Below are positions 29,018-37,208 of a stretch of DNA of 64,000 nt, piece by piece (position 1 is the stretch's first letter; every line of letters starts with the position of its first letter). Location of the stretch: the NCBI RefSeq assembly GCF_028693135.1, contig NZ_JAQUVZ010000002.1, positions 62,001-126,000 of the forward strand, written 5' to 3'. The stretch is from Methanosarcina sp. GTDB taxonomy: Archaea; Halobacteriota; Methanosarcinia; Methanosarcinales; Methanosarcinaceae. Under the pieces are notes generated by a model, which did no database searches, was not told the origin of the DNA, and was given only the letters and a program-made list of their open reading frames with translations. The translations under genes were made by a program, and so were the position numbers.

Positions 29018-31084
29018 TTAGTTCCTGCACCCGAAGAGATTCAGGGACTGTACGGAAGCTGGAGTTACTTCCGGAATATCAAAACTTAGTTTTGTAATAT
29101 TTTTGAGTTTTTCGATAATTGAATTCTTTCTCGGTCCCACAAGGCTGTGTTCCATTACTTCCGCAATAGTGGAAACAGGAATGATCTGAATCTTATCCCT
29201 GTATGCCTTTTCAATAAGAACGTCTGCCTCATTGGCTTTTGGGATAATAACTTTCTTCATGCCGGCCCGGGCTGCAGCTTCAATCTTGTAGGTGACCCCG
29301 CCAACAGGCAGGACATCTCCCCTGACAGAAAGAGAACCCGTCATTGCGACAGTCTGGTCCACAGGGATCTTTTCAATAGCAGAGATTACGGCAGTTGCTA
29401 TGGAAACCGATGCACTGTCCCCTTCCACGCCTTCATATGTCCCTACGAACTGGATGTGGACATCGTGCCGGGAAACGTCTGTTCCGGTCATGTTCTTGAT
29501 CACGGCAGATACATTCAGCACTGCTTCCTTTGCGATGGTCTTGAGCTTGCCTGTTGCAATAATTCGCCCTTCGCCCCCGGAAAGAGCAGGGGTGACTTCG
29601 GATACAATGGGGAGTACAATTCCTGAATCTCCACCCATAACCGCAAGCCCGTTGACTCTACCTATAGCAGAACCTTTCCTCATGAAAGACTCGTATTCCT
29701 TGCGCTGATCGAGGTAGCTGTCTGCAAGCTGCTGTTCGATGGACCTTGCGATCCTCTTTGCCGCAATCACATGCTCGGAAGTTGTGATTGGAGCCCCTTC
29801 AGAGTGGGCAATGTCTCCTGCAACACGCACAAGCCCGCCGAGGTCACGGAGCTTCAGAGTAAGGTGGCCTTTCCTGCCTGCACGCCTTCTGGCTTCTCTT
29901 ATAATATCTTCTACCGCACCTTCGTCAAAGTGAGGAATGTGCCCGTCCCTGACGACTTCCTGGGCAACGAAGCGAACAAGTTTCTTCCGGTTTTCGGGAC
30001 TGTCTTCCATGGAATCTCTCATGTAGACCTCGTACCCGTAGCCTTTTATCCTTGACCTGAGCGCTGGGTGCATTTTCTGTACTGCATCCAGGTTCCCTGC
30101 AGAAACCATAATGAAGTCGCAGGGTACAGGCTCGGTCTTAACAAGAGCTCCAGAACTCCTTTCGGACTGCCCGGTAATCGGGTATTCCTTTTCCTGAAGC
30201 GCAGTCAGGAGGCTCTGCTGGGATTCAAGCCTGAGAGTATTGATTTCATCAATGAAAAGCACCCCTTTGTGGGCTTTGTGGATATCTCCGGCTTCTACCC
30301 TGTCGTGTGCAGGGGTTTCAAGCCCTCCGGACTGGAACGGGTCGTGCCTTACATCTCCAAGCAGAGCTCCTGCGTGGGCTCCGGTTGCGTCGATGTAAGG
30401 TGCCTGCTCCTTATCATAATTTGAAACCGCCATTTTCGGAATCATCATTTCCTCTTTAGGAAGGAACTGGCGGGTTAACATTAGAATCATAATGCCTGCA
30501 ATGATACCCCAGAGCAGCTGGGCGACGAAGTAAGAATAGATGATAATACCCAAAACAAAGAGCATCATGAGCATGTTCCGAGCCTGGGCTTTCTTTCTTG
30601 CCTCCATCTTGTGAGCCATGACAATTTCTCTGCCCTTCCCGGCGGGAACCTCCCTTATCTTGGGGTTGTTAAGATCCTCCAGGTTAGGATACACAAGGAT
30701 ATCTTTGAGCTCTTCTTTAGGAAGAAGTTCTGCCATTGCCTTTGCAAGCAGGGACTTTCCTGTTCCCGGAGTCCCGATCATCATGATGTGCCGTCTCTGG
30801 CTGGCGGCTTTCCTAACTACTTCTACTGCATGTTCCTGTCCCAAGACCTGGTCAATAAGGAGTTTTGGGACCTCTATGTTCGAAGTGTCTTCAAACTTGA
30901 AGCCGATGTCATCTTCGTCTATTTCTTCATGTAACTCAGACTCGACCGTAACCTGAGTAGGCTCATCCTTCTTCGGATCGGCCGCAGACGTATCTACTTG
31001 TGGAACAAACTCACCCACTTCAGGGATTTGTCTGATCATATTCTCCGAAGACCCGTCTATGTTCTGATTATTATTATACTCCAT
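29018..31084 (-). CDS. lonB: Membrane-anchored archaeal Lon protease (LonB)
   Basis: The 688-residue ATP-dependent protease degrades proteins at the membrane. The AAA+ module has Walker A GTPGTGKS at residues 104-111 and Walker B VLFIDEINTL near 280. Two membrane helices form a hairpin at about 171-206, inserted in the AAA+ domain. The C-terminal serine-lysine protease domain has the catalytic Ser in GDSASVSIA near 560 and Lys in VTYKIEAA near 605. The architecture is the standard archaeal LonB. The gene ends next to the palindromic element. A paralogue of its membrane hairpin is encoded at 32495-32935. Confidence 0.96.
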   Translation of the reverse strand: MEYNNNQNIDGSSENMIRQIPEVGEFVPQVDTSAADPKKDEPTQVTVESELHEEIDEDDIGFKFEDTSNIEVPKLLIDQVLGQEHAVEVVRKAASQRRHIMMIGTPGTGKSLLAKAMAELLPKEELKDILVYPNLEDLNNPKIREVPAGKGREIVMAHKMEARKKAQARNMLMMLFVLGIIIYSYFVAQLLWGIIAGIMILMLTRQFLPKEEMMIPKMAVSNYDKEQAPYIDATGAHAGALLGDVRHDPFQSGGLETPAHDRVEAGDIHKAHKGVLFIDEINTLRLESQQSLLTALQEKEYPITGQSERSSGALVKTEPVPCDFIMVSAGNLDAVQKMHPALRSRIKGYGYEVYMRDSMEDSPENRKKLVRFVAQEVVRDGHIPHFDEGAVEDIIREARRRAGRKGHLTLKLRDLGGLVRVAGDIAHSEGAPITTSEHVIAAKRIARSIEQQLADSYLDQRKEYESFMRKGSAIGRVNGLAVMGGDSGIVLPIVSEVTPALSGGEGRIIATGKLKTIAKEAVLNVSAVIKNMTGTDVSRHDVHIQFVGTYEGVEGDSASVSIATAVISAIEKIPVDQTVAMTGSLSVRGDVLPVGGVTYKIEAAARAGMKKVIIPKANEADVLIEKAYRDKIQIIPVSTIAEVMEHSLVGPRKNSIIEKLKNITKLSFDIPEVTPASVQSLNLFGCRN

Positions 31085-32494: not shown

Positions 32495-32935
32495 TTAGAG
32501 GTTTTTCTCTGAAAACAGCAGCATGTGGACGTATAGCAGGATCATCAGTCCAACTACAATCCCCCAGATAAACTGCAAAGTGAAATATGAGTAAACAACA
32601 ATCCCGAGCACAAATAAAGTGACAAGGACATTTACCAGCCTGACCTTTCGCTTCATCCGGGGGTCATGCGGAGTTCCGGCTGCCTCTTCGTTCAGGTCGC
32701 ACTCCCGGAAGTAACTCCTTTCCTGTTTCATGAGGAAGTAAAGCCTCAGGACCAGGATATCGATAACTATACCCCAGAAAGGCTGGCCTATGTAAAAGGT
32801 ATAGAAAAAGACAGCTGCAAGGAAGATACCAACGAGTATTATGAACAGTTGTTCATATTTGCTTTTTCCAGCAGCTTTGCTCCTACCCCTCTCTGAACTC
32901 TTATTCCTTTTTTTGTTCTCTTCTTCCCTGTCCAT
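32495..32935 (-). CDS. Small membrane protein with two LonB-like transmembrane hairpins
   Basis: The 146-residue protein has a charged N-terminus (residues 1-27) and two hydrophobic hairpins at 29-68 and 102-140, joined by a charged loop. The second hairpin contains LFVLGIVVYSYF, then QFIWGIVVGLMIL. The LonB hairpin (residues 175-201) reads LFVLGIIIYSYF, then QLLWGIIAGIMIL: about 18 of 27 positions are identical. The first hairpin has the weaker form FFYTFYIGQPFWGIVIDILVL. No protease or ATPase domain is present. I infer a duplicated membrane module derived from, or shared with, LonB. It lies between TPR genes and is transcribed leftwards on its own. Confidence 0.75.
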   Translation of the reverse strand: MDREEENKKRNKSSERGRSKAAGKSKYEQLFIILVGIFLAAVFFYTFYIGQPFWGIVIDILVLRLYFLMKQERSYFRECDLNEEAAGTPHDPRMKRKVRLVNVLVTLFVLGIVVYSYFTLQFIWGIVVGLMILLYVHMLLFSEKNL

Positions 32936-33116
32936 ACTGACCCCCCTACCTGCAAAGATCCTTTTCTAATGTCGATAAGCAGCAAAATATCCAGAAAACG
33001 TGGGTTAAAGAAAGATATGGAACTTCGAACATCTATAATTAAGCTTTTAATAATATATAAAGGAGTTGGGAAAAAGGCAGGGATGTGGAGGAAAAACACA
33101 GCCTACAGTATGATCT

Positions 33117-33234
33117 ATGCTACAACAGAATCCATGCTACAACAGAATCCATGCCACAACAGAATCCATGCTACAACAGAATCCATACTACAACAGAATC
33201 CATACTAAAACAGAATCATACTAAAACAGAATCT
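33117..33234. repeat. Seven copies of a 17 bp unit upstream of TPR 2
   Basis: The unit is ATGCTACAACAGAATCC, drifting to ATACTAAAACAGAATC in the last copies. It ends about 28 bp before the TPR 2 start, so it covers the expected promoter position. Confidence 0.85.
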
Positions 33235-34307: not shown

Positions 34308-37208
34308 ATGTCCGGGAGTTTGAGAGATTTAGCGGAAAGACATTTTCAAAAGGTCTTATCCCTAATGCAAAAAGGCAAACATGAGGAAGCATTAAAAGAG
34401 CTTGAAAAGACAGAAGAAGCCGCAAAGAGGGCGAAAACAAACGACATTTCACTCAATGTTCAGACCTTAAAAGGACTTATAATGCAGACAATAGGGGCAT
34501 ATGAAGAAGCCCTGGAGATCCATTCTCTTGCCCTAAAAACTACTGAAGAACTCCTCTCAAAAGATCCTGATAACAAGCCTTACCAGTCAAGTCTTCAGAT
34601 GAACCTTGACGAAATTTTCAAGATTGGAAACCGTTTCTATAAAATGGGACGTTTTCTTCAAGCAAAAAATTGCTATGAGCTACACCTCTTAATCTCTCAA
34701 AAACTACTTGAAACCGACAACGAAAATGTAACGTACCAATCATCTGTAGCAATGACTCTCAACAATCTAGCTTCCTTGCTTTCTGATATGGGTCGCATCG
34801 AAGATGCGAAAGCAAAATACGAAAAAGCCCTAGAAATTTACGAAAAACTACTACAAAATGACCCCGAAAACGTAGCATACCAATCATACGTAGGAGGGAC
34901 ACTCAACAATCTAGGAAACTTGCTTAAAAATATGGGGCGCATCGAAGACGCGAAAGCAAAATACGAAAAGGCACTCGAAATCTATACTGAACCTATGCAG
35001 TACCTGACCATAGGTAGAAAGTCAGAGTCAATAATCAGGCTTATCCAACTGAATTCAGAACAGGCGGATAAGGAAACGAACCCCTTTAATCAGATGAATT
35101 ACCTGAGAGAAGCATTTCAAATATGCAAAGAACATCAGGAATTTTTTATCAAATATGAACTAAAGCACGAAAGAAAGCTGGTTACTGAAGCAGGGCTGAG
35201 TGCATATATCGATTTTTTGATGAAGAATGTGAGTCTTGAAGGTAATTTCGAGAAGAGGGCGAAAGAATATGAAAAAGCCCTTCAGGCGGTTGAAAAGCTG
35301 GAGGAAATAGAAGATGATGAAACGGTTTTAAAATTGTGTTCTTCTGCCGCCTGCTATCTTCGGGGAAGAAAACTTGTAAATGAAGCGCTTGCTTCCAGAC
35401 AACCTGAACTAGAACTTCTCAGGCAGGCTGTGGAGCAGTTCAAGAGCGCAAAAGAGACCTATGACAAAGCAAATGTGTGCTTCTGCGTATATACCGGACT
35501 GCTTAAGATTCTGGAAGGTATTGAGGAACTTGAAGAAGTGGATGTTCCGAAACTGAAAGAACTGATTCAGAAGGTTGTTGAAAATCTCCCCGAGGATGTT
35601 AACCCAAGTATAAGGGTTTCTTTTGAGAATATCCCGCAGATTTTTGAAGAAAAAGACAAAATGACGCGCAAAGAGCTACTGAAGGAACTTGATGACAGGG
35701 TCAGTGCAATAGAGTACAAGGCGCTGGAAAATTTCTTCGGGCATGTTAATGCGAAGATAAAGGATTATTTTGAAGAGCCTTTCAGCCCAAACTTAATTTA
35801 CGAAAACTGGAAGCTGAAGGTCATATTTGATGACCCTGAGAAAGTGAAAGGGAAACTTACTATCAAAGTTGGAGATAAAACTCTCCTGAATAGAACTTTG
35901 ACTCCTGAAGAAGTAAAAAACAACCTGCTAGAAATCGATTACCTAAAGATTGGCTACTTCCCACAGGGTGAGGATGAAATCTATTTCACAACTCTGGGAC
36001 AGAAGAAGCCGGTTATAAGGTCAAGTGACTATTTTGAAAGTGTTGGAAGAGACAACAAAACCAGAATATTCCAGTATGACTGCTGCAATGGCGTTTGCGT
36101 TGATCGGGATTTGCAAATTGCGGCTGTCCAGTTGAAGTATCATGTTTACGGCGAAAACTCTGTTGTGAAACTCACGGTTGATGACGCCTATCATCGGAAA
36201 GTTATGGCAGTTCTGGATGCTGTGAAGGGTGAAGAGGATATTGTGGTTTTCCCGGAGTTTTCTATTCCTTTTGATTACCTGGGAGAAATTCAGGAATATG
36301 CGGATGAAAACGGGATTATTGTGGTTGCAGGCAGCCATTATGTAACTGAAGGGAAGCTTGGAGAGTATGGAAAACAGTTCTGCCGGGAATTTGAGGAGGG
36401 GGATTTAAGGAAGAATATCTCTCCTGTTGTCATTCAATCTTCAAAGATTGTACATAATGAGAAACTGCTGGGAGCCAAGGAAGAAAGGGAACTCTATTTC
36501 GATGAAGGCATGAAAGCTGGCAAGGTGAACCACATCTTCAGGCTTCGGGACAACCTCAATGTCGGGGTCATGATCTGCTATGAGTATCTGAATTCCGATC
36601 TGAGGCAGCGCTTGATCCCCGCCTGCGATATAATGCTTGTACCGCAGACAAACCCGAAGCCAGAAAGGTTCTATGAAACGGCAAAAGGAGACCTTAACAA
36701 CCCTCTATGCTCTGGCAACAAAGCATACGTAATGGCAAACGGAATTTTCACCCTTGGAGATGATAAAAAAATTCTTGGAGGTTCTACAGGGATTGTTTCA
36801 ACACTTGACAAATACTCCTATAAAAGACAGGACGAGGGGATTATAACACCCGTTGACAAAGTAATGGAGCAGTTTATCCTGATGACGTCAATAAATACAG
36901 GTTTCAGTTCTGCAAGAGATACACAATTGGGGCAGGTCCCGTTAAAAACAAAAATTGTCCACATCTTTGAGGAAAATGAAATTCTCAGCAGTTCAGAAAA
37001 TGAAGGAAGAAGATTCATTCAATTGCTTGAGACTATAGAAAACTGCAAAAACAAGGAAGAGCTCAGAGAAATACTCAATCGCGAGGAAAACAAAGCAACA
37101 ATAAAGACATTCTCGCCTCTCATGCACAAACACATTCAGGATTTGAAAGAGCTTACTCTCGACGAAATGAAGAAAAAGTGCTGTTGTATCCTGATTCCTG
37201 CAGAATAA
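34308..37208 (+). CDS. TPR-nitrilase fusion protein
   Basis: The 966-residue protein has an N-terminal TPR part like those of the two preceding genes (start LRDLAERHFQKVLSLMQKGK). Two nearly identical TPR units containing MGRIEDAKAKYEKALEIY lie near residues 160 and 205. A helical middle region (about 230-475) and a beta-rich segment (about 485-575) follow. The C-terminal part, about 600-880, is a carbon-nitrogen hydrolase: Glu in VVFPEFSIP near 648, a probable Lys region near 712, and the nucleophile Cys in GVMICYEYLNSDLRQR near 750. The tail ends CCCILIPAE. This is likely an amidase or related enzyme controlled by a protein-binding scaffold. The substrate is unknown. Confidence 0.8.
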   Translation: MSGSLRDLAERHFQKVLSLMQKGKHEEALKELEKTEEAAKRAKTNDISLNVQTLKGLIMQTIGAYEEALEIHSLALKTTEELLSKDPDNKPYQSSLQMNLDEIFKIGNRFYKMGRFLQAKNCYELHLLISQKLLETDNENVTYQSSVAMTLNNLASLLSDMGRIEDAKAKYEKALEIYEKLLQNDPENVAYQSYVGGTLNNLGNLLKNMGRIEDAKAKYEKALEIYTEPMQYLTIGRKSESIIRLIQLNSEQADKETNPFNQMNYLREAFQICKEHQEFFIKYELKHERKLVTEAGLSAYIDFLMKNVSLEGNFEKRAKEYEKALQAVEKLEEIEDDETVLKLCSSAACYLRGRKLVNEALASRQPELELLRQAVEQFKSAKETYDKANVCFCVYTGLLKILEGIEELEEVDVPKLKELIQKVVENLPEDVNPSIRVSFENIPQIFEEKDKMTRKELLKELDDRVSAIEYKALENFFGHVNAKIKDYFEEPFSPNLIYENWKLKVIFDDPEKVKGKLTIKVGDKTLLNRTLTPEEVKNNLLEIDYLKIGYFPQGEDEIYFTTLGQKKPVIRSSDYFESVGRDNKTRIFQYDCCNGVCVDRDLQIAAVQLKYHVYGENSVVKLTVDDAYHRKVMAVLDAVKGEEDIVVFPEFSIPFDYLGEIQEYADENGIIVVAGSHYVTEGKLGEYGKQFCREFEEGDLRKNISPVVIQSSKIVHNEKLLGAKEERELYFDEGMKAGKVNHIFRLRDNLNVGVMICYEYLNSDLRQRLIPACDIMLVPQTNPKPERFYETAKGDLNNPLCSGNKAYVMANGIFTLGDDKKILGGSTGIVSTLDKYSYKRQDEGIITPVDKVMEQFILMTSINTGFSSARDTQLGQVPLKTKIVHIFEENEILSSSENEGRRFIQLLETIENCKNKEELREILNREENKATIKTFSPLMHKHIQDLKELTLDEMKKKCCCILIPAE

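Follow-up and report, generated by a model that had tools for sequence, protein, structure and literature searches.

LonB, which is generally described as a hexamer, is anchored by a membrane segment inserted in its AAA+ module. In the window, i.e. the whole stretch of 64,000 nucleotides of Methanosarcina DNA analysed here, a short frame near lonB (tmp146) encodes little else than two hairpins resembling this anchor, which raises the question of what such a protein does beside the protease. We conclude that tmp146 encodes a functional membrane protein, restricted to one lineage, that consists of two LonB-type hairpins and has no catalytic domain, and its composition and position beside lonB make the function of the hairpin testable. 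A literature search found no description of a role for a tmp146-like protein, and the preliminary description likewise knew of none.

The tmp146 gene, its product and its neighbours

The features of the locus are collected in Table 1. The tmp146 frame reads on the minus strand from an ATG at 32935 to a stop at 32495, and its product consists of a charged N-terminal tail, hairpin 1 (H1), a basic loop (residues 69-99) and hairpin 2 (H2). Both hairpin segments have room for two membrane helices apiece, and their turns carry no charge. Because the positive residues lie in the K/R-rich tail and loop, the positive-inside rule places both ends inside, and the predicted topology therefore comprises four helices, with the N and C termini on the inside and the two turns on the outside. 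The H1 turn reads YIGQPFWG in this genome and YIGQLLWG in most relatives. Single-chain AlphaFold2 models from three-row alignments (pLDDT 65 for tmp146 and 38 for LonB) draw the hairpin regions as one long helix and are too weak to be used.

Table 1. Coordinates of lonB, tmp146 and the TPR genes flanking tmp146 in the window
Feature	Position	Strand	Description
lonB, membrane ATP-dependent protease LonB	29018..31084	-	688 aa; TIGR00764 E=5.8e-285
LonB membrane hairpin	30464..30577	-	residues 170-207, within AAA+ module
TPR protein, 254 aa	31633..32397	+	separates tmp146 from lonB; convergent with tmp146
tmp146	32495..32935	-	146 aa; LonB-like hairpin pair in tandem (four membrane helices predicted)
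tmp146 hairpin 2 (H2)	32513..32638	-	residues about 100-141
tmp146 hairpin 1 (H1)	32729..32851	-	residues about 29-69
TPR protein, 259 aa	33263..34042	+	divergent neighbour of tmp146

In searches of Pfam and NCBIfam, nothing in tmp146 exceeded a curated cut-off. Specifically, tmp146 has no match to Lon_C (S16), which LonB itself matches at 1.9e-33, no AAA match in a search for the AAA+ module and Walker motifs, and none to PLDc_N (PF13396), and the earlier reading of the protein as two hairpins without a protease therefore stands. Assignment to DUF1673 (PF07895) was rejected: the score of 17.6 bits is below the Pfam gathering score of 30.4 and at chance level, the own-genome search placing tmp146 no higher than a 523-aa frame that is presumably unrelated. 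The N-terminal tail is variable, charged and poorly conserved among relatives, and some members of the genus have no ATG, GTG or TTG in the frame upstream of a GTG within the first helix. At loci L022-L025 and L027-L031, which lack an ordinary start codon, the codons upstream nevertheless retain a likeness to the coding sequence in relatives.

In every compared genome that has it, tmp146 is found 2-4.5 kb upstream of lonB and shares its strand, within a block ordered threonine-synthase-like gene, TPR, tmp146, TPR, lonB and tldD, with local variation. The position of the 254-aa TPR gene between tmp146 and lonB is kept in the clade; as this gene is convergent, tmp146 and lonB do not form one operon. 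The intergenic stretch that separates tmp146 from the divergent TPR gene carries a 17-bp tandem repeat (ATCCATGCTACAACAGA, 7.2 copies) at 33113-33233. Further along, 34308-37208 (plus strand) encodes a protein of 966 aa that has TPR repeats at its N-terminus and matches carbon-nitrogen hydrolase weakly (E=0.024, below cut-off). The LonB of M. mazei is MM_0128 (PMC4350412), and no paper on the neighbours of M. mazei lonB was found.

Likeness of the two hairpins to the LonB anchor

The archaeal LonB anchor (MEROPS S16; TIGR00764) and tmp146 have in common a helix-turn-helix with YSYxxxQxxWGI and the inferred topology, the hairpin feature being clear in H2 and weaker in H1; unlike LonB, tmp146 has two hairpins rather than one, neither AAA+ nor Lon_C, and only 146 residues. 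LonB residues 175-201 (LFVLGIIIYSYFVAQLLWGIIAGIMIL) and H2 (LFVLGIVVYSYFTLQFIWGIVVGLMIL) are identical at 18 of 27 positions, exactly as first estimated. The resemblance continues into the lead-in of H2 (HKMEARKKAQARNML versus HDPRMKRKVRLANIL), a preceding basic stretch being common to both proteins. H1 is identical to LonB 175-201 at 8 of 27 positions in this genome, and its consensus at 15 of 27 to LonB of genus g11 (probably Methanolobus).

In a six-frame search of the whole genome, the best non-self match of tmp146 is LonB (E=1.5e-11; next 0.184), and reciprocally the LonB hairpin retrieves H2 at 6.8e-12 and then H1 at 0.0013 (next 0.248), in keeping with the proposal that H1 is the weaker copy. 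A hairpin profile gives about 1e-28 for LonB, 1e-20 to 1e-25 for H2, 1e-17 to 1e-22 for H1 and 0.003 or worse for the background in 19 genomes; since this profile itself contains H1 and H2, the independent evidence is the own-genome searches. Additionally, shuffles that keep the hydrophobic/polar pattern reached the observed scores in 0 of 1000 cases (z=15 for H2 and 8 for H1). Masking GQLLWGI lowers z to 7.8 for H2 and to 3.5 for H1, so that the likeness of H2 is clear beyond the shared turn and that of H1 lies mainly around GQLLWGI.

The shuffles alone overstate the case, since a P-type-ATPase-like helix from a 257-Gb collection scored 72, next to 71 for H1 and 133 for H2; H1 therefore draws its support from the whole-genome search and from its position beside H2. 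The claim that the similarity exceeds that of unrelated hydrophobic helices thus holds, with H1 scoring close to the best chance helix. We discarded the Lutimonas match L036 (LGIVVYSYF), a P-type ATPase by our reading, as a chance match, and hhalign as a discriminator, because a PLDc_N-like hairpin scores nearly as high (97.5%). Site-wise conservation is uncorrelated among LonB, H1 and H2 (rho 0.01-0.09), and the conserved sites do not coincide. On these comparisons, we take H2 to be a homologue of the LonB hairpin and H1 probably to be one as well.

No solved structure showing the LonB membrane hairpin was found: solved chains yield no real match to the profile, and those of LonB that come closest align outside the hairpin. 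The literature searched describes no membrane partner acting through it.

Distribution, selection and descent

Relatives of tmp146 over most of its length occur in 30 of 186 genomes of the order, all in Methanosarcina (g1), g5 and g4, and this range equals one supported clade of the LonB tree (99/96), in which 30 of 37 genomes have the gene. One of these 30 copies, that of G164, has frame breaks. The copy in G168 is truncated, and G165, G166, G172 and G176 lack the gene; in G160 and G079, a contig end prevents a judgement. The gene was lost independently at least three times while LonB was retained. At the former site, G176 has a transposase-like remnant, G172 has no remnant, and in G165 and G166 the block is replaced. 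No homologues were found in phages or plasmids.

In G165 and G166, tmp146 is absent, yet the LonB hairpin is almost identical, and other genera with the LonB hairpin 'YSFYVGQLLWGIIAAIMIL' lack tmp146 as well. Because of these absences despite a similar hairpin, tmp146 cannot be an obligatory partner of LonB. The expectation that gene and hairpin go together is thus contradicted in part, by G165, G166 and the other genera. The LonB hairpin is recognisable with the profile across much of the phylum, with no tmp146-like protein there, and within the tmp146 clade it has no substitution outside two free sites in most genomes; packing of LonB against LonB would suffice to conserve it without any tmp146. 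The premise of the preliminary description, that the sequence of a membrane hairpin is rarely conserved without a binding partner, therefore does not single out tmp146, since LonB is described as a hexamer and its hairpins persist without tmp146. After loss of tmp146, the LonB hairpins are not systematically altered. The LonB turn is changed (A188Y, Q189E, L191I) in G152 (L029, L142) and G176 (L061), and H1 of G152 reads YISQLLWG, not YIGQLLWG. A correlation between tmp146 loss and a changed LonB turn, striking in G176 and G172, was rejected because G152 has both the changed turn and the gene.

Over 102 pairs, dN/dS is 0.15 for H1, 0.14 for the loop and 0.13 for H2, and nearly all genomes keep the frame open for 112 codons or more; judged from these values, tmp146 is clearly under purifying selection. 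By genus, the mean score of H2 against LonB is 110 in g1, 104 in g4 and 78-94 elsewhere, and both scores and tree place H2 nearest to its own clade's LonB, a preference not seen in H1. Identical residues show no excess of identical codons, which indicates that the likeness is old and was kept at the protein level rather than recently copied; a recent gene conversion involving lonB was therefore rejected. A partial duplication of lonB in the common ancestor of Methanosarcina, g5 and g4 probably gave rise to H2, the direction of descent resting on an alignment of 54 columns, and H1 would be either a second, more diverged LonB copy or an independently similar hairpin.

The shared turn and possible roles

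The search for further stand-alone copies showed that the turn recurs in two unrelated families, neither next to lonB. Specifically, a DNA pattern for GQ[LF][LF]WG[IV] has matches in 83 of 112 family genomes and its reversed control in 0, and all 20 examined matches outside LonB and tmp146 belong to PLDc_N-like or to hairpin-plus-soluble-domain proteins, which are stand-alone and unrelated. The PLDc_N-like proteins (PF13396) are small membrane proteins of g11 and g7 (probably Methanococcoides), some with a DUF1673-type N-terminus. They share the FTFHIGQLLWGII turn with tmp146 but differ in that the likeness is confined mainly to the turn (z 1.6-2.7 against LonB with the motif masked, not clearly similar) and that a PLDc_N segment follows. 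Those with a GQLLWGI turn are L101, L104, L106-L108, L114-L126 and L130-L133.

The LonB likeness extends further in the hairpin-plus-soluble-domain proteins of Methanosarcinaceae (160-220 aa), whose single N-terminal hairpin is very like that of LonB (YSYxxGQLLWGIIAAGMIIL). Unlike tmp146, they carry a soluble domain at the C-terminus, about 110 aa long and beta by our reading, and the family has no Pfam match over cut-off. Its members are L080 (1334-1930, minus strand), L081, L083, L084, L085, L086 and L087; L080, L084 and L085 are near dapB, and none of L080, L083, L084 and L085 is near lonB. At L085 there is, in addition, a paralogue that shares the soluble domain yet lacks the motif.

As to its role, we narrowly and tentatively favour, from sequence comparison, an accessory protein that packs against the LonB hairpins. 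Such a protein would insert with the LonB-anchor topology, pack on the LonB hairpins via the shared YSY...Q..WG turn and, itself optional and non-catalytic, modulate the assembly of LonB, membrane occupancy or the access of substrates. The own-genome best matches, the H2 likeness beyond the turn, the clade-limited range, the linkage to lonB and the dN/dS argue for a LonB partner; the losses, the unlinked turn families, the uncorrelated conserved sites, the lack of consistent LonB changes after loss, the absence of a shared operon and the conserved TPR neighbour argue against it. We rate contact with LonB as equal to a second possibility, each somewhat short of an even chance, namely that the hairpin is a reused module, [YF][ST][YF]xxGQLLWG[IV], a compact helix-turn-helix employed by several membrane proteins of the lineage for folding or self-association, and that the job of tmp146 is unrelated to LonB. 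The frequency of the 7-residue motif against its reversed control, the restriction of the 20 other matches to two non-LonB families and the tolerated losses are consistent with such a module, but motif-masked H2 remains strongly LonB-like where the PLDc_N-like hairpin does not, H2 is nearest to its own clade's LonB, and tmp146 stays beside lonB.

It is improbable that tmp146, or what binds its loop or tails, is a membrane-delivered LonB substrate or tag: the position of the anchor inside the AAA+ module, the known Haloferax LonB targets, which include membrane-linked functions (PMC9263693), and the variable charged tail would suit this role, but the tail is poorly conserved and partly without an ordinary start codon in the genus. 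Still less probable is a chance likeness of hydrophobic helices, by convergence or composition, with neither hairpin homologous to LonB. The P-type-ATPase-like helix and the high hhalign rating of the PLDc_N-like hairpin point that way, but nothing comparable appears in a genome-sized search and H2 far outscores the best chance match; convergence is thus disfavoured for H2, while H1 alone may owe its likeness to it. A decaying relic of a partial lonB duplication would fit the losses, the truncation and the irregular start codons of part of the genus, but the dN/dS of about 0.15 and the open frame already make this reading very doubtful.

Small proteins that act on membrane complexes are described for M. 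mazei (PMC12774963, PMC13370731, PMC10714827), and haloarchaeal lonB is co-transcribed with a CAAX-protease-like gene (PMC9263693), so that the kind of accessory protein considered here, encoded near lonB, would have precedents. By analogy, tmp146 would resemble microproteins, MtrI, MtrR and the M. mazei ammonium-transport small protein as a small non-catalytic protein on a large membrane complex, although it is larger than the small proteins of the M. mazei studies (up to 70-100 aa). Microproteins are derived from a domain of their target and lack its catalytic part; tmp146 has no catalytic domains, and its H2 is closest to its own clade's LonB. An extension of the favoured accessory role appears unlikely on present comparisons: that the doubled, split-off anchor copy is a LonB-regulating membrane microprotein and that the turn in the two other families marks a wider LonB-interacting set. 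The recurrence of the turn in other small membrane proteins offers further candidates for LonB interaction. The highest number of motif matches outside lonB in any one genome is five, in G091.
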